Positions 1 to 37,528 are shown, counted from the stretch's first letter. The stretch is 64,000 bases of DNA from Elusimicrobia bacterium RIFOXYA2_FULL_47_53 (GCA_001800315.1 MGVE01000017.1:50684-114683), one strand, 5' to 3'. Notes: generated from the letters alone by a model not told the origin. Numbers and translations are program-made.

Positions 1-2
1 GT

Positions 3-1888: not shown

Positions 1889-1916
1889 GCTTAATTCTTA
1901 CTTTTGAGAGGGTAAA

Positions 1917-4900
1917 ATGAACATTCAAAAACTTAAGCGGAAGCTGATGGAAGGCGTTGCCCGGCCGGTCTGGGGAACTCTTAACGCTCCGGTGCCGGTT
2001 CTTCTGGAAACGGCCTCGGAGTATTTTAGCTTTATCCGCGCGGTAGCTATTGTCACGGTCACATGCTTTATCGTCTCCTCAATAGCGGGGCCGGCCATTG
2101 CCCAGGTTTCGCAGGTGGCGGAGGAAAACAGAAAATACGCGCAGGTTTTTGATGATTTCGTTCTTCCCTATACGGCCGCCCGCATTACAGGAGCAAGCTA
2201 TTCCGCCAGCCCCAGGGTTGTAATTCAGATACAGGACCTTCACTGTCACGGCGAAGTTCAGCGCAATATAAACAGGGTTTTAAGCCTTGTAAACGAGAAG
2301 TATCCGGTCTCAAAGATCTATCTTGAGGGCGCCTATGGTTCTGTTGACACCTCCTGGCTTAATGCCATATCTGATAAAGAAATGCGGCAGGCTGTCGTTG
2401 AATCCCTCGTGGATCAGGGCAAGCTGACCGGCGTTGAATATTTCTCCGCTTCAGGAAACTCAGTTCCGGTTATGGGGCTTGAGGATAAGGATATATATAA
2501 CGCAAACCTTTTGCGTCTTGGCAGGATACTTGATAGCCAAGCGGATGTGGATAAGGCGCTTTCAGGAATTGAGTTGGAGCTTGCAAGGCTTAAAGCCAGG
2601 TACTACAACCCTAAACAAAAGGCGCTTGACATTCTATCTGCCAAATACAGAAAGGAAGAGGTAAAAACCAACGATTTCTACCGCGAGCTTAAAAAATTAG
2701 GCGATAAAAACGGACTTGACATATACGAGTACAGGAATATGACGGCATTTCTCGGGCTTATGGAGCTTGAGAAAGAGCTCAACTACAAGAGGATAAGCCG
2801 CCAGCTGCAGGAGTTTATAATAACACTCAAACAGCGCCTTCCCTACGACGCCTACAAGGTGCTTCTTGAAAAAATGAACGATTTCTCGCGTTTAGACGAG
2901 CTCTATGTTTACCTTATTAAACTTGACCGCGATTTTAAGTTGGGACTTTCTAATACATTCCCGAATCTGAGCACTTTTTTCGCTTATATTGACGCAAGCC
3001 AGAAGGTAAATCCAGTTAATCTCGTTAATGAAGAGAGAAGGTTTGTGCGGGAACTGCAGAAAAAGCTTTCCGCCAATGCCACCGAGAAAGAAGTGGTTTT
3101 TATAGCGGATTTCTATTCAACACTTGCGGAATACTATACAAACCGCCTGACAGCGGAAGATTATGAATACTATTTGAAAAATGAAAGAGAATTTAAGGTA
3201 TTGTGGTCCAAGTATTCGGATTCCTACTATTTGTCCGGATTAGAACCCTTTAACGCCATTCTTAACGACTACTATGTCGCCAACATTGAGCGCAACAGGC
3301 GTTTTGTCAAGAATATTCTATCGGCCTCGGATACCCCGGCTGGAACAGAGGCGTCGCCTTATGTTAATAGTGTTTCTGAAACGCTGAAATCACTGAAAAA
3401 TGCGACTGAAATTGACATTGTAGTAACCGGAGGTTTCCATACTTTAGGGTTGAGCGAACTGCTTGCGGAAAAGAATATTTCGTACCTTGTAATAACCCCT
3501 AATGTCACAAAGGACACAAAGTATGCCAGCGATGTCTATAACGCTCTGGCTAAACAACAGTTCAAAGTTCTATTAGGAGAGGAGAGGCCTTCAACCTCGG
3601 CCCAAATCCAGGGCCAAACGACCGATCGTTTTGCTAAGAACACGCCGCAGAAAGGCGCGTTAGCGTTGCCGGTTATTTCTGGAGATGAATGGGATGCGGG
3701 TTACATCCATTCCGCCACCTTGGCTCAAGGTGGTTTAGGGGCACTTGTCAAAGCGAACAGCGATCCGAATTCAGTCGTAGGCCAAATCAACCGTGAAATT
3801 TTAAAGGACGGCAGAATTAAGATGTCTTACAATGGCGAAAATGAGTATTCACTCCGCGACGGCAGTTACGGTAAAATAATACAAAAATACACCGTTACTC
3901 CGGAAGGTAATGTGGAGATCGTTGGTTCAAGCGAATTCTCGTCAAAGCCCCAGGCGTTTGGCCTGACCAGCAAAACCCAGCTGATTAGCGAAGTCTATAT
4001 TTCCATGCTTTCGGTAGGCGTGTCAGCCGTTCCTTTTATGAAATTAGCCGAGTACACCTTGGCTTTTCAGAATATGTCGGTAAAGGCGCTTGATAACTTA
4101 GTCGGCAAGTCAAGAAGTTATGACGGCAAAACTTTCAAAATAGTTAATGATAGCAGGCTTGAACCCGCCAGTCAAAAGGCTCTTGCCGCGCTAAAGACAA
4201 AATTGTTGGAGAGAAGAACTGAGTTAAGGCAAATTACCGAGAAATTCGCCCCGGAAAACACAAACGGTAGAATGCCGGTCACTATCAATGTTGTAGAGGG
4301 CGATGTGCTGCCTATTGACGATGATTCTCTCGCTTTTGCTACCGTTAAACTGGATAACGGCACGCTTGTTTTATATATCACGGAAGGGCTTTTGAAGAGT
4401 ATTTCCAGGATTCCGGCCGGCGACAAGAAGGAAAGGATTATTAAGTCGCTGTTGCAGTGGGAATTGTCCGAGTATATTTATCTTAACGTGGCGGATAACG
4501 CGCTTGAAACAAAGGACGGGCTCGGCCGTGTGGTAAGCCTGACTTATCGCGATTTCTACAATAAAGAGATGAAAGAAGCGCAGGTTAAAGGGGATAAGTG
4601 GGAGTTCGCGGAACTCTTTGCTTTTGCAGATAGGGAAAGGGCCAAACTGCAAAAGCTGGTCTATGAAGAAGCCAAGCGGGTTACATTGGTTCCGTCCACC
4701 AGAAACTCAATAGATAAAATTTCCGATCCGGTTGAAAAGAGGCAGGCTTACGCGGCAGCAATAAGGTCTGCGGTTAGAGCATGGACAATCTCGTATTTGA
4801 ACGAATACAAGAAGGAGCGCGCGGGTGATTTAGTCGCGTTAGTTGGAGAAATTACTCCTTCAAGTTTCTACAGGAACGCCGAGAGCGATGAATATGTGTT

Positions 4901-7900
4901 CGCGGTTGAAGAAAATGCCAGGGCGTTATCTTTAGATGACTTGATTGCGGGGATAAGAGAAAAACTTGTCAATGATCAGCTTTTGGGGCTTGGTATCGCG
5001 AAGGGCAGTCAGGAGGAGAAGGATTTCTTTAGATTGGAAGCGAGAATACCTGAAGCTTTTTATTCTATAAGCAATGAGTTTAATAATCTTATGCCCGTTA
5101 AGGCGGTTTTAACAAAATTAGAGGGGCCGCAGGATGCATTGACGGCTGCCGAGTTAAAGAATACGGACTTAGCGCGTAGCATTCAGGTCAAAGTTGTAAT
5201 GAATGAGTTGAGTGACAAGGCCAATAAAATCAAGGCCGATCTTGTCCAAAAAGTGCTTCCGGCACAGATATACCGAAATATTCCAACAGCTTCCATTTTG
5301 GATCCTCTTATTAACAGGCTGAATATTAGCCAGTCGTTTGCCAAATTCTTTACGGTTATTCTTGCCCCGGGCTGGGAAACCATTGCCCTGTATTTCGCGT
5401 TTAACGCGTTTGGCTTTGGATGGGCGGTTCTTGGTTTTGCTTTTGCTCATACCATAGTGGACTGGGTTGTAAGAACCAATCAGGATGGATTGGCAAAGGC
5501 ATTCAGCATTAATAATCTGAAAAGCGATATAAGTAAGTTCTCTGTTCGGTTGCTCCTCGCGGGCGCTTTTGTGGTTCCTTTTGAATTTTTCTCTCCTATA
5601 GCGGCCGGAGTAATAAGCTTTATTACTCACGCGGTATACAATTATGCCGTTCTCAGTAGAGGGTGGTCGCTGCCCCTGGCCTCTTTGACAACCCCAGCTT
5701 TTGATCTCAATAAAGAAAATAGAAAATTGCGGATATATAGATTCCTTGACGAAAAATGTGGCATCAGAACGGATAAGTTGAACTCTAAAGAAGTTTTCTG
5801 GAAGGACGGTGTTAGAACTAATTTATATACCTGGATAGCTCGCAGGAGACTGCTTCCGGAAAGCACATTAACTGTCGCTTGGGGCGCTGCCCTTTCTGAT
5901 GCGGCCTATATAAAGAGTCTTGATAAATCTAAATTAAGAGATTTTGCGGCCCAACAGGGTATTGATATTACAAATAGCAGGCAACCATGGGCTGATGTGA
6001 CAAACTTATATCAGGAAAAATCAAGATTCTTTTCTTTGCTGCGTTCGGAATTATTTGGCTCAAAAAATATGACTTTTGACGAACTTAAATTTATTCCTGT
6101 CAGGGTAAACGATAAAGGCGAGTTTGAAATCATAGAATACCTGCTTGAAACAACAGATAAGAACGGTAACGATAAAACCTGGGTCTCTCGTGAGTTTGGA
6201 TTAACTCCGTCAAAATATTATTACGATAAGAAGCTTATGAAAGTGTCAATTAGACAGTATATTGACGGCTATTCGGCTGTTAAACAAGAATTGGATGAGA
6301 AAAATTTGTTCTATGAAGAAGAGCTTGACAGGCTGATTGAAACCGGCGAAATAAGTAATATTGGAAGATTCGGCAATATTATAAAGCCCGCTGTGATAGC
6401 GGTAGGTACATTCTTCTCAACAATGTTTTTAAGCGGCACGAGCTATGCGGCACAGGTTATTCAAAAAGGGGACAGCCTGTGGAAAATAGCTAAAAATCAA
6501 TTGATAAATTCGGGCATTTCGTCTCCCAGAAATGCCCAGATTTCTGAAATGGTAGACAAAATAAAGGAAGTAAATCCAGCCATTAATCCTAATCTGCTAA
6601 GAATTGGCCAGGAAATAAATGTTGATGTGGCGGAAAAAGTTCAGCCGAGTGTTCAGCCGCTTGTTGAAGCTGTAGCGAATACTCCGCAGGCCGCTGAAAC
6701 TGCAGCCCAGGCAGTCACAAATGTTTCAGCTAACGCAGCGCCGGCGGCTGATGTCGTTTCTCAGGCACTTCCGCAGGTAGCCGATGCCGCATCAAAACTT
6801 GCCGATTTTTATCAGGCTGTAGAGCCGGGCGCAAGGCAAGGCGCTGAAATTGCATATCCTGTCGTAAATGCAGTTCAGAATGCCGTGCCAGCCGTCAATA
6901 CAGCCGTGCCTTCCGTTAACATGTTTGATTCACTGGTAACATCAATGCAATCCACAATTTTAGATGCTTTTACATACATTCAATCTATCGGTCAGTCATA
7001 TCCGTCAATTGCGGCGACAGTGGGAATAATAGCGATCGCGGTCGGAGTAGTCTTTTTGGGATACAAGGCATTCTTGCGAAATAAGGCAGTTGAAACTCTT
7101 GTTTTTAGGACAAAAGATGAGGGGCTGAGAAGTAAGAACTTAACTTGGCTGTATGAATCTAATAGGCCAATAGCCTTAAATACTGCTGCAAAAGACTACA
7201 CATTAAATAATGTCAGGGAAATAATAAAAATAAACAGGCAGAGTAAAAATGGTGTTGAAGGGTTAAGCGGTGGGAAGATAAAAGTTGATTACAGCGACTC
7301 AGTGTTGAAGCAATATTCTATTTATGAACTCTCAAGGCTTGTTGAGGAGATAATAAGGCCCCAGCTAAGCACAGGATCAAAAATCAGGCTTAGTGTGATA
7401 AACGACTTAAAGCGCGCGCCCGGAGTTTCAATCAGTCTGCTTTACAGAGTTACAAACGGAGCATTTGGAAGTGTCTCGCTTAATCTTGCGGGCCATCCCG
7501 AGGCACGGTTGTTGTACGAGCAGGCCGGCATTTTCTTTGATTCCGGTTTAATAGTTCCGTTGTTAGCCATTGGAAAAGAGCTTTATGGCGCATCTTACGA
7601 GTTCCCCGAACCTAAAGATGTCGGACAAGAAGAAAGTATGAAAGAACAGGAATCCGTTCTTGCAAAGTCTCTGGAGACGGCCAGAAGAGTAGCCGCTCAG
7701 GAAAAAAAGATAGAGAAGCCTAATGAAATGGATGCTCTCGCCTCTGAGGTTGTGACCTATATGCACGAAAAGGCGCGCTCCGGAATTCTGCTTCCTTGGC
7801 CGGTGTTTTCATTCCTATATAAACGCGGTTTTTTCAAAAAGTCGGCAGAAAAGTTCAGGTACGCCGCCGAGGGCCAGCGCAGGTTTACAATGCCGGAGTT

Positions 7901-19900: not shown

Positions 19901-22900
19901 CCTTCTGGCTGAAAAGGCTATAGCCGTTCTTTCAGAGCACGCAAAAGAGCTGATGGGTAAAACTGAAGCTGAGCTGGCAGCGCTGCTGAAAAATCCGGAG
20001 CGGTTTGAGAACGGCGAACTATCCAGGGTTGTCTCCGAAATAAAAGATTATTCCGGTTCAATTGACCGCAAACCGTTAAATTTGAATATTACTGTTAATG
20101 CCCTTGATGTCGGAGCTGAAGTTAACGGTAAAAAAATAGAAATCAATAACAGTATTAAAAAGATGATGCTGCTTATTCCTGTCATCGCATCTCTCGGTGG
20201 GCAGGTGTATATAAACGGCATTTTCGGAACCAGCGAATTATCAAAGCGTTTTCATTCCAGGAGCGGCGACGGTTCATCTATTACGCGGGTCGGAAACGCC
20301 GTCGTGCGCGGCGGATATCAGGTTAAGGAGGAACGGCTTCAGGACGGAACGGTTCTTAAAGACGAATTTGGCAATGTCTTTTCGCCCGCGAAAGATGTTG
20401 AAACCTGGGACGAAAATTACAAACACCTCTTTGAGGTGGCTAATAAATTCGGTGTTGATGTTACGGTTGATATGTTCGGCTGGCTCTCTCCCGATGCTGT
20501 AACAGCTGAAAATTACAAAAGGCTAATTTACAGGGAAGTGCCTGAGGATTTGATAAAGAGCATGAAGCTGGGTGTCTCGGACAGGGATATGGAAAGGCTT
20601 CAAAATGTAGGATGGGTGATAAATGATAACTATGGAGTAGTAAGGATAAAAGAAAATGGCGCTGAGCGATTGATACTCTGTAAGCATCTCGGAGTTGGAC
20701 GCGACCAGTTTGCGTTAAATATTCTTTCAAACGAAGGAAGAAGCTACCTGTCCCGCGCGATGAAGAAACTGGTTTATGCCGGCGTCAAAGGTTTCCGATT
20801 TGATCTTCCTCACGAGGCTTCGCTTGATTATATGGGTGGTTATCTCGCAGATCCAAGCCTTTTCAACGCTGAAGAAAGGGAATACTTTCAGCAGTGCCGC
20901 AAAACCAACCGCGAACCGTGGCAGGATGTATTAGACGAGGTAAACAGCGACAGGAAGGTACAGGCTGTTTTATCTGGCGGCAAAATTGATTTGGTCGGCG
21001 AAACTTATCCGTTCTTCGGCGAAATCCAGAATAAGTTAAGGGTTGCGGGCATGGATTACCTTTACGACAAGGGCCTCTATGATGTGTTTAAGTTATACGC
21101 GAATAACCCGGGCATGGTTCTGGAAAAATTAAGGCCCGAAGTGGAAAACGCTCTGACTAAGCTGTCTAAAGGCGAAAAACTCTATATTTCGGCTTCAAAT
21201 TTTGACGAACAGTCGTTAAAAAATATCTCAGGGCCCGTTGAACAGTTTGTTTCGCTCTGCCTGTTCCTTTCAATGCGCAAAGACGCCAGGGTACACCTTG
21301 GTATGAGAGAAGTGGCTTACCAGTGCGGAGATGTGTGTTCCATCCCTGGCGGGTCTAATAAACAGCTTCAGCATGGCGGCGCGTTTGAGCATCCGGTGAT
21401 TCCTTTTGAGGAATTGCTCAGCAGGGATAATTTCACTGAATACCTCAACAATGTGCTTGCCAATTCACCGATAGTTAAAATAGTGTCCAGGTTTGCGGAA
21501 CTTAAGGAAAAAGCAAAGGGTCCGGCGGTTGAGGTCAGCAATTCTTTCTACAACAGATATTTTACTTTTGTTTCCGAGCAGACTGACGGTTCTTACGCTG
21601 TTGCGGTTATTGACTTTATGCCGCAGGATCTTTCAAAAGGCATACTTGAGATTGATATGCCGCATCAGTTAGACGAAGTTATCAGAGGCAAAATTGCGAA
21701 TCGCGCAGGCATAGACATCAATCAGTTAAGAGACGATTTAATAAAAGACAATCTCGTTGAGGACGCGCTTAAGGATGTGGCGAATGAATATGTGGTGAAC
21801 GGAGGGCAGGAAAACCTAGATTTAGGGTTTACTCGCGACCGTGGTTCAAGAAAACTTTATTTTCATGTCAAGGTGGGCTTAGACGAAATATCCAAAGAGC
21901 GGCGCCTGGGTGTTCCGGAGATTCTGACTATTTCAAAAAGAACCTGGAAAGAACAGGTGGCCGACGCCATATATCAGAATAATCCGGATTATATATTGAA
22001 TGAACTTTTGAAATGCAAGGATCAGAGGGGAAGTTTTGATAGGGAAAAAGTCATTAATCTCATCGGCGCCTGCAGCGGCCCCGTTGAAGAGTTGTACGAA
22101 AAGTATACTTCTCAGGCAACCTGGCGGGTAACCAAGGCGCAGAGACAGCTTTCAGCGCGGGATCAGAAGGCTTTGCTTGATATCCTTGATGAACATTATG
22201 GCGGACAGGATAAGGCTGTTCCCAAGCTAATCCTGTCAATGTTTCTGCTGGATGCCGCCGATGCCGAAGAAGCGGCTGAGGATAAAGCCGGAGCCTCCGG
22301 TAAAGGAACAAAAAATATTGATTTAAACCTTTTCGCGAAATACAGGATATTTAAAGATATGGCAAAGCAGGTATGGGCGCTTCGCGGCAGGGCAAGCTAT
22401 ATAGTTTCTGCGGAGATTTCGTACTGGGGCGGTGGGCTGGGTGCGGTTATGGTATTTTTGTTGAAGGGCGAGACCAGGCTGATAAAATACCTAAATGTTA
22501 AGGATGCCTCAGCTGCTTCAATTGAACTGTTTTACAAGAATAACACCAAGGGTGAACCGCTGGATTACGCGAAGGAATGCGGCGTGGACCTTGAAATAGA
22601 CAAGTTGACAGGCACTCCAAAGGTGATTGATTATTATATTGCGCTCGGGAACTCCTCAAGAAGAGCCAGAGCCTATGTCGGAAAAGATAAATACGGATGC
22701 ACAAGGTACCTGATAGAGGATGTGGACGGCAATGACGGCAGAGGATATCAGAGCTCATCCAATGTTCTGTACAGCTACAGGGAAGGCGACAAAAACCCTC
22801 AGAACGCGACTAAATATGAGAGCATGGCTTTTCTGAGCGTGGCTTCCGCGGAGTTGATACGCATATTGGAGGCCCAGCGCAAAGACAGGCTCGGAGCAAA

Positions 22901-25900
22901 TTGGAAACCGGCTTTTGTGCACGCCAACGACGGACAGTGCGGATTCCTTGCGGCAGTAATAAAGAGTAAATACAGAAATGACCCGGTGATGAATAAGATG
23001 CTCCACTATTTTACAACTCACACTTACGCGAACCGGGGGTACTGGTGGAATGGCGGTAAAGACAGCGTCGCTGTGGGTTCCGAACAAATGAATCTGGAGC
23101 GATATATGCAGTATCTGGGTATATCTCCAAAGTACTGGACGGCTGCATTCCGCATGGAAGACGGCCAGTGGGTTGGTGATGACTCTTCTCTTGGTGTGCG
23201 CCTGAGCGACGGTTCCAACGCGGTTGCGGCAGATCACAGGGATGACCAGAGCGCGATTGACAGGTTATGGACCAGGCTTGTTGGAACACCCAACGGCGCC
23301 GACCCGAATCTGCTTGGCCAGTACCTTAAGGAATCATATGCTGAGGCTTATAAGCAGTTGTCCAATGACCCTGATAACGAAGAGCAGCTGGACTTAAGGC
23401 ATCCCGGCCCCAAACTTTTCTGGGCCGCGAAAGCAAAGGCGCGCGAGAAATTAAATCGTTCGGGAATAATAACATCCACCGGAAGAAGGATTGTACTTAA
23501 TGTTCCGGAGGAACAATATGGAAAACCCGGGAGCTCTGCCTGGCTTTCACAACTACAGCAGGTTATTACCAATGTTGGGCGCGCTGTGCCTGAGAAAGTC
23601 GGCCGCGGGCTTGTTTCATACGACTCCGTTGATCCTGAAGGCCGTGGCGGCCCGGCAAGCAATGAAAACATAATAGCCGCAGTAAAAGCGGGCAGACAGG
23701 TGGTTTTAGTGGGTGTTGAACAGGGGTACGACCTGAGCAAGCAGATAGTCGCCCGTTTCAGGGATTTGGAGCAGTTAATCGCTGACCGCAAAGCCGGTAA
23801 GCGACTGGCGCCCGGTGAAACTAAAGAGCAGTATTCGGGAGATTTCTTCTTTGTCAATAAGGTCACGGCGGACGAAAAGATGCTTGTTTTTGCCGCCAGT
23901 AATATGCACATACACTGGCCGTATGGCCCATATACTCACAGGAAAGAGCGGTTGTATCCATCAAAACCGTTGTCGGCATTGCTGAGCTCTCTTTCAAGGG
24001 CGGGCGGTTCACTTGCCATGGCGATAGGCAGAACCAAAAAGGGAACCGGTGCGAACGAGTATACCGAATCGCCGGCGCTTGACGCAATAGTTGCAGGGCC
24101 CTGGTCGGAGGAAGGCGGGGTAGGCGGTATCATTGACCAGGGTACGGAGATATCCGAAAACGGCAACGGCAATACCTACAGATTTGAATATTCGGAACAG
24201 GGTTTCCGTGACCTGCTGACGACCGCGGGACATCTCTGGGACACAGATAAAGAAATGTATGCCAGGCATTCGCTTAACACAAGGCCGCTGAACAGCGTAA
24301 TGCACTACCTGAATTCCGGCTTCCTTGGTTATCTCCTGCCAATGTGCAGAATTGCCGATGAAAAAGCCAGGCAGGAAACCGTTGACGCGGAGCTGATAAA
24401 ATCCGTGCGTGCCAGCATTAACGGCATCAAAGACAATAAAATGAAAATAGAAAAGATTTCAAATATGCTTTTCGGCGCTCATGCGGACGGTACACGCTTA
24501 AGCGAGCAGGAAGCGGTCATGTATAATTTTGTTTTTAAACCTGAGATATCACAGATGAATTTTGGTTTCCGCTCGGGCAGTTACGCCTCGGGCCTGGATG
24601 AATTTCTCAACATGAAACTTAGATTTGATGAAAATGACAAGGCCATTCTTATTGACCTTAAACATCTTCAGAGCGGGCATTATACCGGACTCATGTCAAA
24701 AATATTTAATGACCTTGATTGCCTTGACGAAGTAAATAACTGGAGCAAAAACTTTATGTCGGGGTTGGACAACGATAACGCTGAGATTATGAAGAAAGAC
24801 CGCCGTATTACCGTGCTGTTTGAGAATCTCGCGGCTATGATGTATTCGGAACTTCTGGCGGCAAGGCTTGATTCCTCTGATTCCAAAGTCGTCTCAATCA
24901 GAAAAAAACTGGACAGGGTCATCCAACACATAAACGGCGACAAGGAAGTCATCAGGAAAATATTGACTGATCCGGTTAATCCTTACGGCCTCTCATCTGG
25001 AAATAGAGTCTACGGGCTTAAGGGGCTTGCTGAAAGCATGAATGAAATTGATGTGGTTAATTTTAAGAAATATGTCGCTTTTCTTTTTGAAGGCCTTAAG
25101 TGCCAGGGTGATATAGTTGAATTATTCGCTACTGTGCATACCGCCGATGATTTTAAGGCAACGCTTCAGAGCCTGATCGTAGCGCTCCAAAGCACCCCTA
25201 ATGCTGAGCATAACCTTATGAATGGTGTGATTGAGCAAGAGAATGCCGTGTCTGCCGCGACGAACCTGCTTGCGAAAATTACTTTTGTCAGTGATTTAGA
25301 ACAGGTGTTCGCGCAGAATCCGTTTATAGCGGCTCCGCAATACGGCTACGAAACTACGGTTCCTTCTAAAACTCAGGAAGTTGCTTCGGCCGAGGCTCCG
25401 GTCGCGGCGCCGCAGCTCCCCGAGACACAGAAAACCTCTCCAGCCGTTATCGCCGCGGAGGAGGTAAAACCAGTTGCCGCGGCTCCCGTTGCCCCTTCCA
25501 GTAAGAAGAGGCAGCGCGTTAGAGCAAAAGAGTCAAAGAAAAACACGGGAATACCCGTTGGAAATATTGTGGCTAATGTGCGTGAATCATCTCCGAGGAC
25601 TATGGCCGAGAAAACAGCTCTCGCGCTTGTCCAGCCGTGGCTTGCGATTGAGGGTATGAACGATTTAGTCGGGAGAACCATGTATTTTATCGGCGAGGTA
25701 AATGCGACTCTCCTTATAAATGTGATGAAGCTTGGCATGAAACCGGTTCAGGTAACACTGTTAAACGACACTCTGCTGAACAATGAGCTGTTAACCGAGA
25801 TAAATGCCGCGAATGTTATCATTGGTAACGATAAGGTTGTTCAATTAACTTTCTTTAAGCCCGTCAGCGGAAAAGGCAATGCTTCGCCGGTTATTATTGC

Positions 25901-28313
25901 TCTTTCGGTTCCGGGCATAACCGATAACCTTCGGAATGTAGAAGAGCTTAACGGCGAACAGAAGCAGCTGCTTTCTGCAGGTTCCGCCCAGGTAATGAGA
26001 GCTATCGCCGAAACTCCCGTATTGAGAAGGCAGATAGCCGAGGCCTACAATATTGATTTTGACAATGCCGTTATGCCGGATATTGTTCAAATATCAGACG
26101 GCCAGGCAGTAAGCCTCGCCGAGGAAATAAACAGTAATAGTGAATTTTTCGGCAACACGCTTCTTGAGGTTGTGCTGAGAGATTCTTCTGCTGAAGGGCT
26201 TGTGAGGCTTGCCAAAGAGCCCGAGGTTCTTGTTAAGGCGGCGGATGGCGTCAAAGAAATATATCCCTGGGCGGAAAATAAAATAGTCCGCTCAATAGCG
26301 CCTGCGGACGATCTTGAGGCTTTGAAAGCCGATATGCGGATTTATGAGCCTGCTATAAAAGTCAGGCAGAGCGGCCAGTCGCCGGTTGCTTCAGGCATTA
26401 TCTTTAAGTACACCATAGGACAGCTTCGCAATCCAAGGATAGATTATGGAATAGGAAAGATTGACAATTACCTTGCGGAAACCGTTGTCAGCAATAAAGA
26501 CTACTATTCCGACACCGCCCTGTTAGCGGATATCCTGAACGCGAAAGGGCATATAAATGTCGGCCTTGTTGATCTGCCCGGGTTAGAGGCCAATCGGCAG
26601 GACGGCGGTAACGCGGTTGATGATAATGCCGAGAAGAGTGTGCTCGCGGCGGCGAGAAACCGCTCTCTTGGGGATACCTCTTATAATGAGTTTAGAAATG
26701 ACATAAATAATAAGAAATATTTTGAAGGTGAAGCCGATGAATATGTTTATGCTCAGTATGCTGCCGAGCAGGCCCTTAAAAAGCATATTTTCAACAACCC
26801 CGGCCTTGCCGACACAAAATTCATGTTTAAAATTGATGCTTCGCGTATGTCTCCGGAAAAGCTTGAGGCGTCCGTTAACCGCTTGTTCGCGCTCGGTTTT
26901 GCCGGAGCCAATATTGACTTTGACGATATCTCTAATGATCAGGTGGAGGCTTTTACCGCGGTGCTCAATAAACTGCAGTCAAAGGCTCAGGACTCAGGCG
27001 CTATCCTGATGGCTTCCGGAAAAGTAAAGGCCAGAGGTGTCATGGTTGCCAAAAAGGCCGATCCGGCCAATGGCGCCGCCGAGATTGATATGCTTACCAG
27101 CGCCGGCAAGGATATTTACATAGAAATGAAAGAAGGTAAAATATTTAAGAAAAAAGATGAGGCCAAAATTGTTGAGTTCCTTGACGCCTGGAATCAGTCG
27201 GGAGCCGGATTTATCATTGACAACTCGCTGAAGCAAGGTGTTTTAGACAGAAAATTCAGGTTGAATGGGGATGTTTCGGGGTTTGATATAACCGATGTGC
27301 TCAATAGAATAGCCCTCGGCAATATTTCCCGGCCGGCCTCAAGGCAGGAATTGTTAGCCAAGGCAAGGCTTCAGGGCCAGAACCTTAGCGGCAAGGCTGC
27401 CGTTAACTACACTTCCTGGGAAGAAAATCCGGCTAAAAAACAGCTGCACGGACTGCTTGAAGCCTTCGCGTCCGCAAAGTCCGACGCAAACGCGGAGCTC
27501 ATGAAAGGGTTTGAAGGTAAAATTGTTTCAGCTCTTGATAGCGCGGGACTGAGTTCTCCTGCGGTGTCAGTTGCTTTATCAGGCCTGGTAAAGCAGATAG
27601 AGGCCTCTAAGGACAGCCCGGAGGCGCAGGCGGTGCACTACGAGCGCCTCGCGGCTTTTGCCAGAGGGGCCATGGAAGGCGCCCTTGAAAATATATATTA
27701 CAAAGAGCTTGGCTATACTGAAGAGCCGTTTGTGAATGATTCGGACAGGTCAAAATTCCTTGCCCTGTTGTTTGCGGCGGACGCGAATCCCGACGGCCTC
27801 GCTGTAGTAGTATCAGTTAAAAAGAATATGAAGAATGTCAGTACAATTGACGAGGAAAGCGCCCGCAAAGCTATGGCATATATCAATGCCAACTTGACTG
27901 AGCTCGGTTCTGCGGCAGGAATACTAAATAAGAGCGTGGACTTCCTTCAAGGTTCGGCCGGCGCTTTCAGCGTTGTGCAGCTGCGCTCCTCTGTTTCTCA
28001 GCTCGCGACCCACGAGGGGCTTGTCAGCCTGTGGCCTCAGATCCTTCTTGTTATGTCAACAATAGCCGAGTCTCAGAACTCATTGTCAGCTGCCGAAATG
28101 AACGCGAGGATTCTGGCTGATATCACGCCATTTGTCGGTAGAATAAATAACACGGGAATGCTGCCGAGCGCCGATAAGTCCGGCGTGCGGCCTGTTGCCA
28201 TCACACTCGTCATATTTGATGTTGTTTCTCAGCGCAGGCAGAAAGAGATCGTTAAGAAGACATCCGAATCAATCAATATAGCCGCGCTGAACCTGTTCCA
28301 GGCAGCTCAATAA
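1917..28313 (+). CDS. Giant multi-domain membrane protein (8,798 aa) with GT2/GT84-like, GH13-like and GT5-like modules
   Basis: One uninterrupted frame of 26.4 kb, with GAGAGGG four bases before ATG 1917. Order of what I can see: hydrophobic export/TM segment at residues 39-61 with a possible AIA|Q cleavage site at 62; TIKI/ChaN-like fold about 98-540; hydrophobic segments about 1152-1247; TM about 1492-1511 followed by LysM about 1514-1571; TM about 1697-1720; coiled-coil-rich stretch about 2015-2105; membrane-embedded OpgH/GT84-like glycosyltransferase about 2249-3280; I/V-P-W repeat array about 3460-4750; TM about 5180-5203; HEAT-like repeats about 5420-5714; HELRH zinc-protease-like module near 5904; GH13-like barrel about 6072-6592; GT5-like module about 6822-7472; Ala/Pro/Lys linker near 7820-7880; unassigned C-terminus with a barrel-like stretch near 8295-8470. 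Giant proteins are known in Omnitrophota. The combination suggests extracytoplasmic or membrane glucan metabolism, but several catalytic motifs are altered, so activity is uncertain. No frameshift or internal start is evident. Confidence 0.85.
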   Translation: MNIQKLKRKLMEGVARPVWGTLNAPVPVLLETASEYFSFIRAVAIVTVTCFIVSSIAGPAIAQVSQVAEENRKYAQVFDDFVLPYTAARITGASYSASPRVVIQIQDLHCHGEVQRNINRVLSLVNEKYPVSKIYLEGAYGSVDTSWLNAISDKEMRQAVVESLVDQGKLTGVEYFSASGNSVPVMGLEDKDIYNANLLRLGRILDSQADVDKALSGIELELARLKARYYNPKQKALDILSAKYRKEEVKTNDFYRELKKLGDKNGLDIYEYRNMTAFLGLMELEKELNYKRISRQLQEFIITLKQRLPYDAYKVLLEKMNDFSRLDELYVYLIKLDRDFKLGLSNTFPNLSTFFAYIDASQKVNPVNLVNEERRFVRELQKKLSANATEKEVVFIADFYSTLAEYYTNRLTAEDYEYYLKNEREFKVLWSKYSDSYYLSGLEPFNAILNDYYVANIERNRRFVKNILSASDTPAGTEASPYVNSVSETLKSLKNATEIDIVVTGGFHTLGLSELLAEKNISYLVITPNVTKDTKYASDVYNALAKQQFKVLLGEERPSTSAQIQGQTTDRFAKNTPQKGALALPVISGDEWDAGYIHSATLAQGGLGALVKANSDPNSVVGQINREILKDGRIKMSYNGENEYSLRDGSYGKIIQKYTVTPEGNVEIVGSSEFSSKPQAFGLTSKTQLISEVYISMLSVGVSAVPFMKLAEYTLAFQNMSVKALDNLVGKSRSYDGKTFKIVNDSRLEPASQKALAALKTKLLERRTELRQITEKFAPENTNGRMPVTINVVEGDVLPIDDDSLAFATVKLDNGTLVLYITEGLLKSISRIPAGDKKERIIKSLLQWELSEYIYLNVADNALETKDGLGRVVSLTYRDFYNKEMKEAQVKGDKWEFAELFAFADRERAKLQKLVYEEAKRVTLVPSTRNSIDKISDPVEKRQAYAAAIRSAVRAWTISYLNEYKKERAGDLVALVGEITPSSFYRNAESDEYVFAVEENARALSLDDLIAGIREKLVNDQLLGLGIAKGSQEEKDFFRLEARIPEAFYSISNEFNNLMPVKAVLTKLEGPQDALTAAELKNTDLARSIQVKVVMNELSDKANKIKADLVQKVLPAQIYRNIPTASILDPLINRLNISQSFAKFFTVILAPGWETIALYFAFNAFGFGWAVLGFAFAHTIVDWVVRTNQDGLAKAFSINNLKSDISKFSVRLLLAGAFVVPFEFFSPIAAGVISFITHAVYNYAVLSRGWSLPLASLTTPAFDLNKENRKLRIYRFLDEKCGIRTDKLNSKEVFWKDGVRTNLYTWIARRRLLPESTLTVAWGAALSDAAYIKSLDKSKLRDFAAQQGIDITNSRQPWADVTNLYQEKSRFFSLLRSELFGSKNMTFDELKFIPVRVNDKGEFEIIEYLLETTDKNGNDKTWVSREFGLTPSKYYYDKKLMKVSIRQYIDGYSAVKQELDEKNLFYEEELDRLIETGEISNIGRFGNIIKPAVIAVGTFFSTMFLSGTSYAAQVIQKGDSLWKIAKNQLINSGISSPRNAQISEMVDKIKEVNPAINPNLLRIGQEINVDVAEKVQPSVQPLVEAVANTPQAAETAAQAVTNVSANAAPAADVVSQALPQVADAASKLADFYQAVEPGARQGAEIAYPVVNAVQNAVPAVNTAVPSVNMFDSLVTSMQSTILDAFTYIQSIGQSYPSIAATVGIIAIAVGVVFLGYKAFLRNKAVETLVFRTKDEGLRSKNLTWLYESNRPIALNTAAKDYTLNNVREIIKINRQSKNGVEGLSGGKIKVDYSDSVLKQYSIYELSRLVEEIIRPQLSTGSKIRLSVINDLKRAPGVSISLLYRVTNGAFGSVSLNLAGHPEARLLYEQAGIFFDSGLIVPLLAIGKELYGASYEFPEPKDVGQEESMKEQESVLAKSLETARRVAAQEKKIEKPNEMDALASEVVTYMHEKARSGILLPWPVFSFLYKRGFFKKSAEKFRYAAEGQRRFTMPELLVSGRVAKLASVRLAAMGKGDAETKKKELEIERAKAEPDAAIINELERSIDMIEANGKIEALRKELDSINADIKKQAKQGVDNPLKGNARKGAIEFEIERSEFNLLNMKYQVQSEIRNEFIAKYQALAKKEVGDMDFSSYDKLFNNIVDKINIVVKAAGNDKDIADLSEMLGLPLEVVVGAIEGHRIGSDKLYLVNRLIKELNRYGSKYSSALEMLNYYKYDVEARDFVAGLVKNADTIIPDSFVKSNPAYFYEWFRISLQAFMGLGIYVLPALIFYGTAFVFMPIPIIFGVIFGLITYYVAWAPAHKFSLHVTGVFVKWFGRGVRGHERIKYIDRYIDDKYTADVPLRVSNVISKISASEDDFDVAIKYLRQTLERDIALLKRHPNNLEFNIIIRSDTNPYKSARNKEIVDYEMKVMRELIEEYREELPNLNIGYFNMGAREWVNNTNGKLGQGGFGMKAGGIALQMQLFEEGYTKSRIYVDESHEHSMRDNPVFCAVVATDLAKMLGHEKSHDTRDKAARGELNESIHRDILAGNDLKLTKDYGYRDTLSLLSDDKNIVLEVGETDKMLAIMLHPANKHIVMTTPHIVVTPPYIDGVPQSSWWWKLMKVSRDIHNEFNARLMASIYGNGSAFFGKGVVRQGKYYQNVFKRETLSIARILSHDWQESIFSVYTEALYGSLNYSVEILQKSEDEMLLQVNLNDDTRFVKIVFDRKKGQVEVYEEDYAGGDGKFTLAKVFLLKDICVSTEFNDLAGILKLSPEAAKDFKELQSKEVLRVYDLVSSGELKKVKDEKDKKEFISKKLSEFENLRGVSNLSAAEKEKAVENYKNDLLAAFDKKHILDKKIGAHMAELAERAEIKFNGDARKIAEYMLRRGNAYQNQLLAELKSAELARNIPIIKARMIDEFGHLMTIDHVSKIVTNSYGNSYSMGERDQLNPLTYLMRDARWLLGDIQMARTELPYKAFLPPAHQTHTEGIMRRLLGNSFFLAFVVLSNLIWIFPTVLALPAVVPIQVALILITAFGILYKDRIGDPFSYAVNMAKAEGRELSLVGRVVTYIPLFFQGIFEIVVTTLVSLLLVVISPLITFAMYLYEKSGKSPSWTPSSVVSTMELKKPISRKEFADMSARLELEGLSKDEIQMLRDSLSKEGNEKSEIISYILQSAQNQGLDIKAMQKDIKRIAGGISQKEYKDVLLFKAVKIGIFAVLTFGVFIWLGVTPVTAFSVYGILPLSFSLLGGMLAMRWAGQVRAYSSSSTPLWKKGVASAVLVSIMAGSVAGVMTARSVPTYDKSMIERALPLLSESPERYGYSEEVKKAFDQVKESQARANAYVPKSTVPGMALSGKISDVAAAQVPLTKVEAKPGVVMTKPAASVDVVLPPINAKAGRINTVREVFSADLLKFMKYAKVRAERKPLSEISLPDEEIKRGGGGELIKTGAALGFKRTQKSIAWAAVQTVAASFSSYIGIGINLISKVEAIAVIWEYGDKYPWLSLTGDISSTVFWSESRLYADRSMEDFARIYRWDDIAAMWKAGVAEDIPGYERYEYLQTAVVTLHYAGLPVTEQNVNKFLGHFTKENINKLVAKYPALENSLRPYQLLPEKARTGIKLFGILNLLLPPGMGVQLPTDLPVITLAQVAHQVISGDSGTVEVLTALAIANDMTLESLLDRMGFGYVNEAIDKKWAVNEKVFAEYVNRFQSDMKMQGLEKPEDFMKPESVTLSAHMANYQMVEAVWDTLVNEGLRSGRPSNNEIREIGEKLNNNMVEMWDIFSVWERGGKEKYPKIFKQAMISKGVADQYAMNMYLAMELAGKDKTVQEKAKQDYLMLLKKLQFDPALAVYNQYGFVEEGIVNDLMFMNEVGRRKLSYDPRSDEANNKDLIENINKTINGQRFEAKQLTALLWLASLDEELRANGFVHTDENGNKKYAEYEVKTSDRGNVLIKVTPLNAAKTYLELYGQGVRSYPDIPWSKVVGSYLMLFYHGHFGKVSDLMNHSKDDFSDAQKWFTQGYLMQEYSMSKEEHAKLRSEVNSAFDEYQRLVSKDKSALNQRDRDSIADYENKELTLAKKDLIEVVMKDKYTKIGITDEEEIEMMHRRSEDKENLFGVYTFISNMIISARVNNIDAEENELIRVFMKAYNFGTKSMDFSEKNMVPWLDVSLFIVINYFKTDFAAQFNEKDIRSPDSKIKILFEKLNAPMRYSNRWLFNKYDPAGSGEAPEITDKQIELIARKMYERMGYVDQQIDILISILNTDQAGIIKLYTAYMFVGTLLEDYEKNRVKQIDADKDPVKDLGEVDKASKLAEMYFKLYLKGKGGDYQNIPWWDITRFMLQAEILAGFKSEEEVFEYYKKSFGYVNAWLADKNFKVPEDFVITVVKKPYGDLNYPESKIDVIVRETLPQLKLYTAYMFAAKIIESLDYNGVKVDPQEVIADFMELYKYGIAEQKDKLGAIPWFDFASYAVVEYHVNKADKGWKNVKEYINSDYYKGTLPLVQRYITDSTKLPDGFAYENAFRTELVIKNKNTDPRNDLSKEENRKQLLEINAVLGDQSDAVKNFNGYLVLASLKLKYEARFGAIADRDERAWLETAASRLLNAWKTYPGKYPNLPMMKSGVLESIVMDSMVFSDPLEIERALGLDEANRLMSADNNLGVSQAVKDDIAKEFTLRTKVEIKDEAVKEYMAVLTAVNLLKVNFMDVSNENINKVLETRLAIRNLSAKYPRLKISEKRGNAETWTIFAIENGIAVGDLETKYFEVISANFDKIKSSFTDDEMAIKLNKGLISALIDRRTAAAEFGAEEDMLADPDIDADDIVVELGRYQVSKSIALGQDVADLAVFFELSGKVKAANKPQLDAMTNSYNNVLSKLDLKNRVESSDDLKELISYIVLTEKIQGKCDSFASSIVALKNAVYGPAATPEIREAFSQFKGFDELSAGIVKNLTAINNSTPVLGKIESVRKDNERLAASLEFSWALWMTLKNVPIGALEEIIGNIEYVEEKYRDVIGFIPSDESGVTFTDALGVYIRGDYWKPMYWLNAEYKKIQPEWWVNNIVKESYQRLFDKVLDDSDPDGNDAKLLKAFYKKYERKRPLGDGKGLFDEIVDDLANNGAYELNKSGELVRADKNTYKLRIELAQELYNAKNEILNDIQKQRRSDTFIREDVSAASKLLNELLDSPSQMKAEAANIENILNRNLYMNKKMALLISVAMAGLLYVLWKVLDFFGRSRPLPASSVGLGFTKDEVLSRVAMGSAEGSQVHNLAVSLVDRMFADSDKRTVLSKGEARLRHSESLDLLSAAISSNTDLLKSVGVNKNNIEVLVSDQMLTKENSLSFGLVQVRDGKLYFIVSEIFLNRLTDSDKEMRIGQFVNYSLREYAAINAKNSDEYNKFVYSLDSKVDEKDRTRSAVNYRKYAMAGTNEDLIDILSFAKNNIPIDITYKKAVGGLLAANKDVKGKKAAIKALLTVAKLGEDSTVKRLLQNNMSQSVSAMIEASAQAAISVLNDMVANDVPAVKLAAAVALGRLSPQQGVSALSGYLVSTDGTDINVSENMPLLIGSVADGIKNIWDDMLKPDNNEGISSINSKIVAMDELASYVGPSEEVRDAIRPLLFSDNINIKLVALDALSRLGDKQSLDIVKTILVNNAYSKEVRMAAAAFIGRLGSIEDLDLMVSAYKVSIYPALKIAILNAIGSIGKQEVAHSVSLSVLRDIINNEKGITPRKQAVSVYVSLFSSVDKIDLINRLLEKEEMTDVRILLAQVLKDEIAKINEAKKKTKAFEALKIKGNNSLLGSIEKLLASKNKFEAVKGAPMPNDSELFKMPRAESMELVNAFKDAGVPLSGGSIGALITKAYDSIAAGLKAQGKDKELATLNGKNEIKIVLIEKDQSQHLFENHLNDGFIGINRTFLEIIAQNPKIAQALFIAGIAHELRHEAGIPDEDLTVDANLMASLMPLYNVTSEELENSYLADILESPEFVLETLRAVLEIHESAISRITKAFGKLLGKGREKTRKSDIVNNSLLAEKAIAVLSEHAKELMGKTEAELAALLKNPERFENGELSRVVSEIKDYSGSIDRKPLNLNITVNALDVGAEVNGKKIEINNSIKKMMLLIPVIASLGGQVYINGIFGTSELSKRFHSRSGDGSSITRVGNAVVRGGYQVKEERLQDGTVLKDEFGNVFSPAKDVETWDENYKHLFEVANKFGVDVTVDMFGWLSPDAVTAENYKRLIYREVPEDLIKSMKLGVSDRDMERLQNVGWVINDNYGVVRIKENGAERLILCKHLGVGRDQFALNILSNEGRSYLSRAMKKLVYAGVKGFRFDLPHEASLDYMGGYLADPSLFNAEEREYFQQCRKTNREPWQDVLDEVNSDRKVQAVLSGGKIDLVGETYPFFGEIQNKLRVAGMDYLYDKGLYDVFKLYANNPGMVLEKLRPEVENALTKLSKGEKLYISASNFDEQSLKNISGPVEQFVSLCLFLSMRKDARVHLGMREVAYQCGDVCSIPGGSNKQLQHGGAFEHPVIPFEELLSRDNFTEYLNNVLANSPIVKIVSRFAELKEKAKGPAVEVSNSFYNRYFTFVSEQTDGSYAVAVIDFMPQDLSKGILEIDMPHQLDEVIRGKIANRAGIDINQLRDDLIKDNLVEDALKDVANEYVVNGGQENLDLGFTRDRGSRKLYFHVKVGLDEISKERRLGVPEILTISKRTWKEQVADAIYQNNPDYILNELLKCKDQRGSFDREKVINLIGACSGPVEELYEKYTSQATWRVTKAQRQLSARDQKALLDILDEHYGGQDKAVPKLILSMFLLDAADAEEAAEDKAGASGKGTKNIDLNLFAKYRIFKDMAKQVWALRGRASYIVSAEISYWGGGLGAVMVFLLKGETRLIKYLNVKDASAASIELFYKNNTKGEPLDYAKECGVDLEIDKLTGTPKVIDYYIALGNSSRRARAYVGKDKYGCTRYLIEDVDGNDGRGYQSSSNVLYSYREGDKNPQNATKYESMAFLSVASAELIRILEAQRKDRLGANWKPAFVHANDGQCGFLAAVIKSKYRNDPVMNKMLHYFTTHTYANRGYWWNGGKDSVAVGSEQMNLERYMQYLGISPKYWTAAFRMEDGQWVGDDSSLGVRLSDGSNAVAADHRDDQSAIDRLWTRLVGTPNGADPNLLGQYLKESYAEAYKQLSNDPDNEEQLDLRHPGPKLFWAAKAKAREKLNRSGIITSTGRRIVLNVPEEQYGKPGSSAWLSQLQQVITNVGRAVPEKVGRGLVSYDSVDPEGRGGPASNENIIAAVKAGRQVVLVGVEQGYDLSKQIVARFRDLEQLIADRKAGKRLAPGETKEQYSGDFFFVNKVTADEKMLVFAASNMHIHWPYGPYTHRKERLYPSKPLSALLSSLSRAGGSLAMAIGRTKKGTGANEYTESPALDAIVAGPWSEEGGVGGIIDQGTEISENGNGNTYRFEYSEQGFRDLLTTAGHLWDTDKEMYARHSLNTRPLNSVMHYLNSGFLGYLLPMCRIADEKARQETVDAELIKSVRASINGIKDNKMKIEKISNMLFGAHADGTRLSEQEAVMYNFVFKPEISQMNFGFRSGSYASGLDEFLNMKLRFDENDKAILIDLKHLQSGHYTGLMSKIFNDLDCLDEVNNWSKNFMSGLDNDNAEIMKKDRRITVLFENLAAMMYSELLAARLDSSDSKVVSIRKKLDRVIQHINGDKEVIRKILTDPVNPYGLSSGNRVYGLKGLAESMNEIDVVNFKKYVAFLFEGLKCQGDIVELFATVHTADDFKATLQSLIVALQSTPNAEHNLMNGVIEQENAVSAATNLLAKITFVSDLEQVFAQNPFIAAPQYGYETTVPSKTQEVASAEAPVAAPQLPETQKTSPAVIAAEEVKPVAAAPVAPSSKKRQRVRAKESKKNTGIPVGNIVANVRESSPRTMAEKTALALVQPWLAIEGMNDLVGRTMYFIGEVNATLLINVMKLGMKPVQVTLLNDTLLNNELLTEINAANVIIGNDKVVQLTFFKPVSGKGNASPVIIALSVPGITDNLRNVEELNGEQKQLLSAGSAQVMRAIAETPVLRRQIAEAYNIDFDNAVMPDIVQISDGQAVSLAEEINSNSEFFGNTLLEVVLRDSSAEGLVRLAKEPEVLVKAADGVKEIYPWAENKIVRSIAPADDLEALKADMRIYEPAIKVRQSGQSPVASGIIFKYTIGQLRNPRIDYGIGKIDNYLAETVVSNKDYYSDTALLADILNAKGHINVGLVDLPGLEANRQDGGNAVDDNAEKSVLAAARNRSLGDTSYNEFRNDINNKKYFEGEADEYVYAQYAAEQALKKHIFNNPGLADTKFMFKIDASRMSPEKLEASVNRLFALGFAGANIDFDDISNDQVEAFTAVLNKLQSKAQDSGAILMASGKVKARGVMVAKKADPANGAAEIDMLTSAGKDIYIEMKEGKIFKKKDEAKIVEFLDAWNQSGAGFIIDNSLKQGVLDRKFRLNGDVSGFDITDVLNRIALGNISRPASRQELLAKARLQGQNLSGKAAVNYTSWEENPAKKQLHGLLEAFASAKSDANAELMKGFEGKIVSALDSAGLSSPAVSVALSGLVKQIEASKDSPEAQAVHYERLAAFARGAMEGALENIYYKELGYTEEPFVNDSDRSKFLALLFAADANPDGLAVVVSVKKNMKNVSTIDEESARKAMAYINANLTELGSAAGILNKSVDFLQGSAGAFSVVQLRSSVSQLATHEGLVSLWPQILLVMSTIAESQNSLSAAEMNARILADITPFVGRINNTGMLPSADKSGVRPVAITLVIFDVVSQRRQKEIVKKTSESINIAALNLFQAAQ
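2208..3536 (+). other. Giant protein: TIKI/EreA/ChaN-like module
   Basis: The module starts with a beta strand leading into IQDLHCHGEVQ (His109, His111, Gln115), then IYLEGAYG with Glu137-Gly138. It ends with VVTGGFHTLG, where His508 sits in a GxxH motif. Two GxxH-type motifs enclosing a conserved Glu is the signature of the TraB/TIKI, EreA and ChaN superfamily; here the first Gly is replaced by Gln. The intervening part is long and helical. It follows directly after the export segment, so it would be extracytoplasmic. The assignment is at fold level only. Confidence 0.4.
6456..6629 (+). other. Giant protein: LysM peptidoglycan-binding module
   Basis: VIQKGDSLWKIAKNQL opens a classical LysM: a V-x-KGDSLWKIA start, a helix, then EVNPAINPNLLRIGQEINV with the N-P-x-L-x-x-G-Q-x-I closing motif. 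It follows a hydrophobic segment ending in SYAAQ at about residue 1513, which resembles a signal peptide and would place LysM outside the inner membrane. An Ala/Val/Pro/Gln-rich linker follows. LysM binds N-acetylglucosamine polymers, so this part probably tethers the chain to the cell wall. Confidence 0.8.
8661..11760 (+). other. Giant protein: membrane-embedded glycosyltransferase resembling OpgH/GT84 glucan synthases
   Basis: Hydrophobic helices (residues about 2249-2303) precede a GT-A-like domain. About six more hydrophobic helices (2977-3090 and 3190-3280) follow it. OpgH-like motifs in order: IIIRSDTNPY near 2388 (OpgH has LSDT); MTTPHIV after the acceptor-aspartate region; FFGKGVVR where OpgH has WGHNAIIR; ILSHDWQES at 2655-2663, matching the OpgH signature LSHDFVEA; and MRDARWLLGDIQ with Arg2942-Trp2943, matching the RW-x-x-G-x-x-Q signature of OpgH and GT84 enzymes. 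The DxD position carries Glu-Val-Gly-Glu (2558-2561). The known families make periplasmic beta-glucans; substrate here is inferred. Confidence 0.6.
12300..16150 (+). repeat. Giant protein: degenerate helical repeat array with I/V-P-W signature
   Basis: A recurring pattern of a helix with Tyr/Ala, then a short turn of type (K/S)YP or (I/V)PW, then a hydrophobic helix. The clearest copies are KYPWLSLTGDISSTVFW (Trp at residue 3483), YPDIPWSKVVGSYLMLFY (3959), MVPWLDVSLFIVINYF (4144), NIPWWDITRFMLQAE (4311) and AIPWFDFASYAVVEYH (4441). Weaker copies include KYPKIFKQAM, KYPNLPMMKSG and KYPRLKISEK. The four clear consecutive copies are 185, 167 and 130 residues apart. The helix before several copies also recurs (LYTAYMF twice). 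I know no named family that this matches. Confidence 0.5.
18174..19056 (+). other. Giant protein: HEAT-like repeats
   Basis: Paired helices with the HEAT pattern of Ala/Leu-rich second helices: VPAVKLAAAVALGRL, INIKLVALDALSRLGD, KEVRMAAAAFIGRLGS and PALKIAILNAIGSIGK. Spacing is about 35-45 residues. HEAT repeats build a curved scaffold for protein contacts. They follow a single hydrophobic helix at residues about 5180-5203 and precede the HELRH module. Confidence 0.65.
19440..19830 (+). other. Giant protein: HExxH metalloprotease-like module
   Basis: The segment FIAGIAHELRHEAG carries an intact His-Glu-x-x-His zinc motif (His5904, Glu5905, His5908) in a hydrophobic helix. It is preceded by a beta strand of type IKIVLIE and by GFIGINRTFLEII. 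A third zinc ligand is not certain; Asp or Glu residues follow in PDEDLTVDANLMA. Two similar but degenerate modules occur elsewhere in the same protein (near residues 848 and 5350), where the motif reads WELSE and YSLRE. Zincin fold is inferred. Confidence 0.5.
20130..21690 (+). other. Giant protein: GH13-like (alpha-amylase family) barrel
   Basis: Motifs in GH13 order: VDVTVDMFGWLSP (strand 3 region), VKGFRFDLPHEAS with the nucleophile-position Asp6296 and its Arg two residues before, DLVGETYPFF with the acid/base-position Glu6362, and ISASNFDEQS with Asp6430 where active members have N-H-D. All three carboxylates are present, but the usual His before the last Asp is Phe. A C-terminal beta domain may follow (FTFVSEQTDGSYAVAVIDF). 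Activity on alpha-glucans is plausible but not shown. Confidence 0.65.
22380..24330 (+). other. Giant protein: GT5-like (glycogen/starch synthase family) module, probably altered
   Basis: YIVSAEISYWGGGLGAV resembles the N-terminal S-E-x-x-P-x-x-K-x-G-G-L motif of GlgA, but the position of the ADP-glucose-binding Lys is Trp6837. FVHANDGQCGF (His7002) matches the HAHDW-x-x-G motif and YFTTHTYANRGY matches the T-I-H-N motif. The C-terminal GT-B half is recognisable only in part: VVLVGVEQGYDL matches the R-L-x-x-Q-K-G-x-D-L region. The P-S-x-F-E-P-C-G-L loop appears as ASNMHIHWPYGPY. It sits 230 residues after the GH13-like barrel. I expect changed specificity or loss of synthase activity. Confidence 0.6.
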
Positions 28314-33123: not shown

Positions 33124-33136
33124 TCCGGAGGGTAAA

Positions 33137-34372: not shown

Positions 34373-34417
34373 TAATCCGCACAGCGCCGTAACAACTCCT
34401 CACCCTCAGGCAAAATA

Positions 34418-37507: not shown

Positions 37508-37528
37508 GCCTTATAGGATGATATTATT

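Follow-up and report, generated by a model that had tools for sequence, protein, structure and literature searches.

A Tiki-like head domain shared by giant mosaic proteins of Elusimicrobiota and neighbouring candidate phyla

Results

The 64,000-nucleotide stretch of the genome of Elusimicrobia bacterium RIFOXYA2_FULL_47_53 analysed here (GCA_001800315.1, MGVE01000017.1:50684-114683; hereafter the window) encodes, at 1917..28313 on the plus strand, a single giant mosaic protein of 8,798 amino acids (aa), whose N-terminal head resembles proteins of the Tiki/EreA/ChaN superfamily and recurs in many other giants. All features of this gene are given below as window positions on the same strand. 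The frame holds zero N and one stop codon, the terminal one, and the chance of a frame this long at the base composition of the window is log10 P ~ -225. A codon score based on the usage of neighbouring genes was best in its own frame, against the five others, in 22 of 22 blocks of 400 codons. Upstream, a hairpin resembling an intrinsic terminator (1852..1882, 13-pair stem and T-rich tail) would close the preceding unit, the ATG of the giant following 34 nucleotides past it, and a ribosome-binding-site-like GAGAGGG (1906..1912) stands 4 nucleotides 5' of this ATG. Together, frame, codon score and GAGAGGG bear out the initial annotation, produced by a model from the sequence alone, which had described a non-random open reading frame with a plausible ribosome site: the 8,798-aa frame is real.

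The protein starts with a basic N-terminus and a predicted signal or anchor helix with an A-x-A-like end (aa 39-57, 2031..2087), a hydrophobic start that is conserved in other heads. The head itself (aa 72-566, 2130..3614) was modelled with AlphaFold2 at high confidence (pLDDT 93.4, pTM 0.91) as a Tiki/EreA/ChaN-like alpha/beta hydrolase core carrying a large helical insertion. Searched with Foldseek, this model gave EreC (E 0.034) and then Bcr135 as top matches, and the top ten of VIA-align contained ChaN (Z 7.7), EreC (7.4/6.8), HopBA1 (7.0), Bcr135 (7.0/6.7) and a further Tiki-family protein (6.1). The Tiki-family matches span most of the head model, the other top-ten entries being helical matches to the insertion. 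A profile of the head compared with PDB sequences returned nothing real, the relationship being visible by fold only.

Nine residues are invariant in 77 aligned heads drawn from five candidate phyla (Q106, D107, H109, E137, R459, G505, G506, H508 and P528 in the numbering of this protein), among them the D107-x-H109 motif (2235..2243), E137 (2325..2327), and G506 and H508 within TGGFH (3432..3440). In VvRRSP, the 2His/2Glu site consists of E3900-x-H3902, E3930 and H4030 (PMC6254334). The head residues D107-x-H109, E137 and H508 match the order of this site and its 30-residue spacing (E3900/E3930). The His-Glu pair and the second His (H109, E137 and H508) are invariant in 77/77 heads, and the place of the first Glu is taken by Asp (D107) in 77/77. 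The alpha/beta core is thus recognised with moderate Z-scores and a best Foldseek E-value of 0.034, and because fold neighbours and invariant residues agree, despite these moderate individual scores, we consider the predicted assignment of the head to the Tiki superfamily convincing. The head, overlooked by the initial annotation, is the most informative part of the protein and defines a large family.

Comparing the first 2,800 residues with the same genome revealed four more giants (9,296, 5,410, 4,635 and 4,774 aa), so that at least five giants of this genome begin with the head, and the five have only their N-terminal ~540 residues in common. Across the phylum, the head profile matched 69 of 340 genomes, in open frames of up to 11,894 aa. 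A scan of the genome collection placed its carriers among Endomicrobiia and other Elusimicrobia, whose sources include termite gut and rumen, and gave one or a few matches each in Omnitrophota, Goldiibacteriota, Firestonebacteria and FCPU426. An origin in Omnitrophota is thus not supported, the relatives being Endomicrobiia/Elusimicrobia and the genome itself belonging to Elusimicrobiota, where it falls into one order with genomes labelled Endomicrobiales. The head tree comprises several old subfamilies, the five heads of this genome falling at three separate places. On an Omnitrophota contig (L162:9677-11374), the head occurs as a stand-alone 566-aa protein, which is possibly the ancestral single-domain form. 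The head is missing from many genomes of the small-genome genus g7 and carries several stop codons in G027 (C18:71495-73091), G030 (C20:17195-18730) and G308 (C12:32633-33463). This loss or breakage in small-genome relatives is part of genome reduction. It indicates that reduced lineages can do without the function, and a housekeeping role becomes less likely for that reason.

Behind the head, the four paralogous giants of the genome carry different bodies: one combines TPR, CofD, B12/radical SAM and HATPase domains, another two nucleotidyltransferases with kinase-like domains, a third GGDEF and HEAT, and the last GT5, HD, HEAT and RAP. Their motifs are mostly intact, including GGDEF, the radical SAM CxxxCxxC (CPFNCAIC), DNGPGIP of the HATPase, LHDYGK of the HD domain and GSGARGEAGRLSDAD, as is that of the nucleotidyltransferase. 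In two other head-bearing chains, of 3,236 aa (L143:9983-19690) and 3,502 aa (L152:9980-20485), glycogen phosphorylase, GH77 and debranching enzyme stand in a row, and each chain is thus predicted to hold a near-complete glycogen breakdown pathway in a single polypeptide. Further head-bearing chains contain PPDK, phosphoglucomutase, UDPGP, Maf, cytidylate kinase, dynein-type AAA, GH26 and AMPK-type glycogen-binding domains. Orthologues compared between Endomicrobia species stay colinear for thousands of residues, with gains and losses of whole modules, and their ratio of non-synonymous to synonymous substitution rates (dN/dS), a rough estimate given the large synonymous distances, is 0.18-0.21 overall and at most ~0.3 in every block of ~500 codons. 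Colinearity and low dN/dS together indicate that the family is translated and kept under purifying selection along its length. In addition, an HExxH motif lies at most 700 aa behind the head in 23 of the 77 head frames with enough sequence there, some of these loci overlapping, which suggests proteolytic maturation as a putative common step. Cysteine makes up 0.22% of the residues of the giants, against 0.56% for 24 ordinary genes in the window, a depletion that fits export.

Downstream of its head, the 8,798-aa chain was mapped with Pfam matches judged against the curated gathering cut-offs. A short module common to other giants (aa 787-857, 4275..4487) is followed by a multi-helix membrane module (aa 1145-1261, 5349..5699) that giants from many of the phylum's families also carry; the latter looks CPBP-like by eye, a likeness that has no Pfam support, even via homologues, and that we do not claim. 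A transmembrane (TM) or signal-like segment (aa 1488-1506, 6378..6434) immediately precedes a LysM domain (aa 1514-1569, 6456..6623; PF01476, above the gathering score), and a further TM segment lies at aa 1697-1715 (7005..7061). Then come an OpgH/GT84-like glucosyltransferase module with flanking TM segments and the motifs LSHDWQES and RDARWLLGDIQM (aa 2258-3099, 8688..11213), TM segments at aa 3193-3274 (11493..11738), and a long region matching no Pfam family (aa 3300-5180, 11814..17456), for which G046 is the one partial relative, covering aa 4586-4808. Beyond a TM segment at aa 5183-5201 (17463..17519), the only hydrophobic segment is a marginal one (aa 6085-6103) inside the GH13-like module. 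The second half holds HEAT repeats (aa ~5483-5739, 18363..19133; HEAT_2, 1.9e-9, above the gathering score), an HExxH peptidase-like module (aa 5813-5930, 19353..19706) with HELRHE at aa 5904, a weak GH13-like module (aa ~6060-6570, 20094..21626) readable by VTVD, GFRFD, VGET and SNFD, and a GT5-like (starch/glycogen synthase) module (aa ~6810-7500, 22344..24416). The HExxH module is kept in many relatives, its surrounding pattern staying close to LFEDHxxNGFIGxN. Apparent degenerate copies of it, seen by eye at aa 787 and 5296, were unsupported by the module's own profile, and an HExxH at aa 2505 within the GT84-like module, not conserved in homologues, was taken as chance. The C-terminal 900 aa show no recognised family and have a single relative, G001, which is colinear over aa ~7894-8777 (25596..28247). 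With phmmer, neither aa 1-4000 nor aa 6000-8798 matched any PDB sequence.

The three glucan-type modules are assigned with unequal strength. The GT5 assignment is firm at the level of sequence, the Glyco_transf_5 match at aa 6949-7064 scoring 34.8 bits against a cut-off of 22.7. In an alignment with true GlgA sequences of the phylum, HxNDxQ-, THTxxN- and GRxVxEK-type motifs are retained by the GT5-like family, which lacks the KTGGL lysine and EPCG, in whose places the giant has WGGGLG and TGANEYTE; its relatives carry TGAxEYTE or similar at the EPCG place. The OpgH/GT84 assignment is likely. The module matched neither Pfam nor PDB sequences, and a sequence search of the 340 phylum genomes yielded two clear homologues only; the three members share SHDWQES, RDxRWLxGDIQM and DDKN when aligned, and hhalign aligned the module with OpgH at LSHD and RDxRW (E 6e-4; GH13 control, E 0.24). 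The module thus has the SHD and R/QxxRW motifs and TM helices on its flanks, and DDKN stands in 3/3 members where OpgH has DADS, so the canonical DxD is missing. The GH13 assignment is plausible. Two clear homologues were found, and in the alignment of the three proteins all four GH13 regions can be read, Asp, Glu and Asp being kept at the triad positions of regions II, III and IV and the His of NHD being absent. Comparison by hhalign gave E 7e-4 and 0.013 vs a control at 0.76, with weak matches to alpha-amylases at region II (E 0.06-0.7). Against PF00128, the best relative reached 14.2 bits for a cut-off of 22, the giant's own module not being among the matches, and an AlphaFold2 model of the module failed for lack of sequences (pLDDT 39). 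The earlier view of one membrane-anchored chain with LysM, GT5-like, OpgH/GT84-like and GH13-like modules is thereby supported, its list of modules standing on Pfam evidence for LysM, HEAT and GT5 and on conservation for HExxH, and on motifs and weak profile matches for the OpgH/GT84-like and GH13-like parts. Since the altered residues of the glucan-type modules are common to distant members, they speak for a changed but selected function, be it catalysis or binding, and not for decay. The genome also encodes an ordinary 492-aa GlgA and a 644-aa GH13 protein elsewhere, so the giant is not the cell's sole glycogen enzyme.

The initial annotation had proposed looking for the same domain order in other genomes. 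The full module set was found in no other genome searched, and a partial order was recovered: head, HExxH and GT5-like modules also occur together in G005, and a contig-end fragment of G001 is colinear through HExxH, GT5-like and C-terminus, with no recognisable GH13-like module between HExxH and GT5. A 10,958-aa frame of G003 joins a head to a GT5-like module, and G202 joins a diverged head to a GH13-like one. Besides this genome (G000), the GT84-like module is carried only by G281 and G205, the GH13-like module only by G007 and G202, and the GT5-like module by G001, G005, G203, G043 and G003. To judge from these module distributions, the architecture is one outcome of module shuffling and not a conserved glucan operon in one chain.

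A second giant gene, of 5,882 aa and on the same strand, runs from C17:34165 to window position 1130 (L013:3482-20000 plus window 1-1130) and ends 786 bp before the 8,798-aa gene. Its product has no Tiki-type head but does have an N-terminal TM helix. It also contains Peptidase_C39-like domains (two stretches pass Pfam, a third was noted by visual inspection), a hydrophobic stretch rich in Ala and Gly, a middle that appears beta-rich by eye, and, near aa 4371-4870, a region resembling SecA/DEAD helicases. On the 3' side of the 8,798-aa gene lie a response regulator, an FtsH-like AAA/M41 protease and an RND efflux operon, the latter (31714-40660) apparently a single operon in which an outer membrane efflux protein (OEP) and an HlyD/CusB-type adaptor are joined by two complete, adjoining RND pump genes.

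Discussion

We favour, with a probability of about 0.5, the reading that the 8,798-aa protein is exported and works as a polymorphic effector or a surface machine, pairing a constant head with a variable cargo, here directed at glucans, and that it does not belong to a housekeeping glucan pathway. A basic N-terminus with a signal-like helix places a head outside, and LysM binds peptidoglycan. The signal/anchor helix would put the head outside the cytoplasmic membrane, presumably by Sec export, where it may have a hydrolase function, probably that of a peptidase processing either the chain itself or a partner. LysM would then fasten the protein to peptidoglycan. The glucan-type modules could target alpha- and beta-glucans, by catalysis or by binding, either on the cell surface or on a partner or prey cell. 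Several observations weigh against this. The Z-scores of the head stay below 8, where a shared general arrangement alone could account for them, some catalytic residues of the parent families are missing from the glucan modules, and the internal TM segments leave the sidedness of individual modules uncertain. Moreover, several cargo enzymes require ATP, nucleotide sugars or [4Fe-4S], which suit the cytosol better than the surface, so that delivery into another cell would be required, and no delivery route or secretion partner was identified.

A competing reading is the proposal of the initial annotation, a dedicated machine making or remodelling one surface glucan, with fungal Ags1 as nearest precedent, in which the GT84-like module would extrude a beta-glucan or the GT5-like module make an alpha-glucan, the GH13-like module transfer or trim it, and LysM hold it at the wall. 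Three glucan-type modules do share a single membrane chain, the order GH13-like before GT5-like is that of Ags1 (PMC5753165), the Asp of GH13 region II, the Glu of region III and the Asp of region IV line up, and each module keeps its family-specific residues across distant relatives. We nevertheless regard such a machine as unlikely, because the three modules are not inherited together, G001 even lacking a recognisable GH13-like module between HExxH and GT5, and the GT5-like KTGGL lysine and EPCG, the GT84-like DxD (replaced by DDKN) and the GH13-like His of NHD are gone, while the genome has a normal 492-aa GlgA and the chain has no Ags1-like multi-TM C-terminal domain. As a self-contained glucan machine, the protein thus finds no support, given a separate glycogen synthase gene, a GT5 module without the KTGGL lysine and EPCG, and modules that stand apart in other giants. 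The same loss of canonical residues in all three glucan modules could instead point to a structural scaffold, coat or adhesin built of enzyme folds without catalysis and binding glycans and proteins, as could the HEAT repeats and LysM and the interpretation of giants of neighbouring phyla as coats and adhesins (PMC10066038). This seems rather unlikely to us, considering that complete catalytic motifs (GGDEF, CxxxCxxC, DNGPGIP, HD) persist in the paralogous giants of this genome, that the HExxH motif and the head site are intact in the 8,798-aa chain, and that the altered residues are family-specific and conserved, not scattered.

The cytosolic type of the family's cargo enzymes, together with the cytoplasm-facing catalytic domains generally known for OpgH-type enzymes, would also suit a cytosolic or inner-membrane multienzyme whose bodies face the cell's own cytoplasm, the head serving as membrane anchor. 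We consider this improbable, for the basic N-terminus and signal-like helix predict an exported head, LysM binds peptidoglycan, cysteine is low, normal GlgA and GH13 genes exist separately, and the head is missing or broken in reduced genomes. An assembly or annotation artefact fusing separate genes would be consistent with a module order found exactly in this genome only; it is extremely improbable in view of a frame and codon signal that are even along the whole length, of the four more giants (4,635-9,296 aa) of the genome that open with the same head, and of the order of head, HExxH and GT5-like modules kept in G005 and the colinearity of HExxH, GT5-like and C-terminus in G001.

Returning to the exported, constant-head reading, a further-reaching form of it can be put forward tentatively, in which the Tiki-type head exports and proteolytically matures giant polyproteins bearing working sets of cytosol-type enzymes, to the surface or into partner cells. 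Across Elusimicrobiota and neighbouring candidate phyla, the cargo would then be a glucan set here and a complete glycogen-breakdown set elsewhere, a suggestion as tentative as the former. Giant genes of candidate phyla have so far been known mostly as long frames with few recognisable domains, and a shared head provides a handle on them: one head profile lets giants be found, counted, placed on a tree and biochemically tested. That radical-SAM, GGDEF, nucleotidyltransferase and glycogen-enzyme modules stand intact behind this head makes the role of cytosol-type enzymes in exported megaproteins a sharp and testable question.

Comparison with known systems

The initial annotation knew of no described system joining such modules, overlooking fungal Ags1, in which GH13 and GT5 share one membrane chain (PMC5753165). 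Both chains are anchored and would share the order GH13-like before GT5-like, the GH13 assignment being weak here; the bacterial chain differs in having no C-terminal multi-TM domain, altered GT5 motifs and many extra modules. With OpgH and cyclic beta-glucan synthase (GT2/GT84), it shares the SHD and RxxRWxxG motifs and flanking TM segments, and it departs from OpgH by DDKN in place of DxD, by a match to the family model that is not significant, and by being embedded in a giant chain. With GlgA (GT5), it has in common a Pfam GT5 match above the cut-off and the HxNDxQ, THTxxN and GRxVxEK-type motifs, whereas the giant lacks the KTGGL lysine and EPCG.

The head shares its fold, and the same His/Glu/His order and spacing, with the Tiki/EreA/ChaN superfamily (ChaN 2G5G, EreC 6XCS, HopBA1 5T09, Bcr135 3B55, VvRRSP 5W6L). 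Unlike these members, it has Asp for the first Glu, its second and last site residues are separated by a large helical insertion, and it sits N-terminal to giant mosaic bodies. Polymorphic toxins and MARTX likewise pair a constant export part with a variable enzyme cargo, as one head does here with many bodies, export being our inference. A Tiki-family domain occurs in MARTX too, but in the giants it is the conserved head that is of Tiki type, and neither RTX repeats nor a cysteine protease domain were seen in the 8,798-aa protein.

Giant genes have been reported from Omnitrophota and Elusimicrobia (PMC10066038, PMC12057145), and the known giants of Omnitrophota and Elusimicrobiota likewise are very long open reading frames with TM helices and carbohydrate-type domains, several per genome, in candidate phyla whose lifestyle is symbiotic or predatory. 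The published ones (PMC10066038, PMC12057145) differ in having few annotated domains, poor conservation and adhesin-type domains, with no shared Tiki-type head mentioned. No description of such a head, or of a design joining it to shuffled enzymes, was found in a literature search that did not cover the West-Roberts et al. preprint on giant genes. Giant genes in these phyla are therefore known, whereas the shared Tiki-type head and the mosaic logic built upon it appear to be new.
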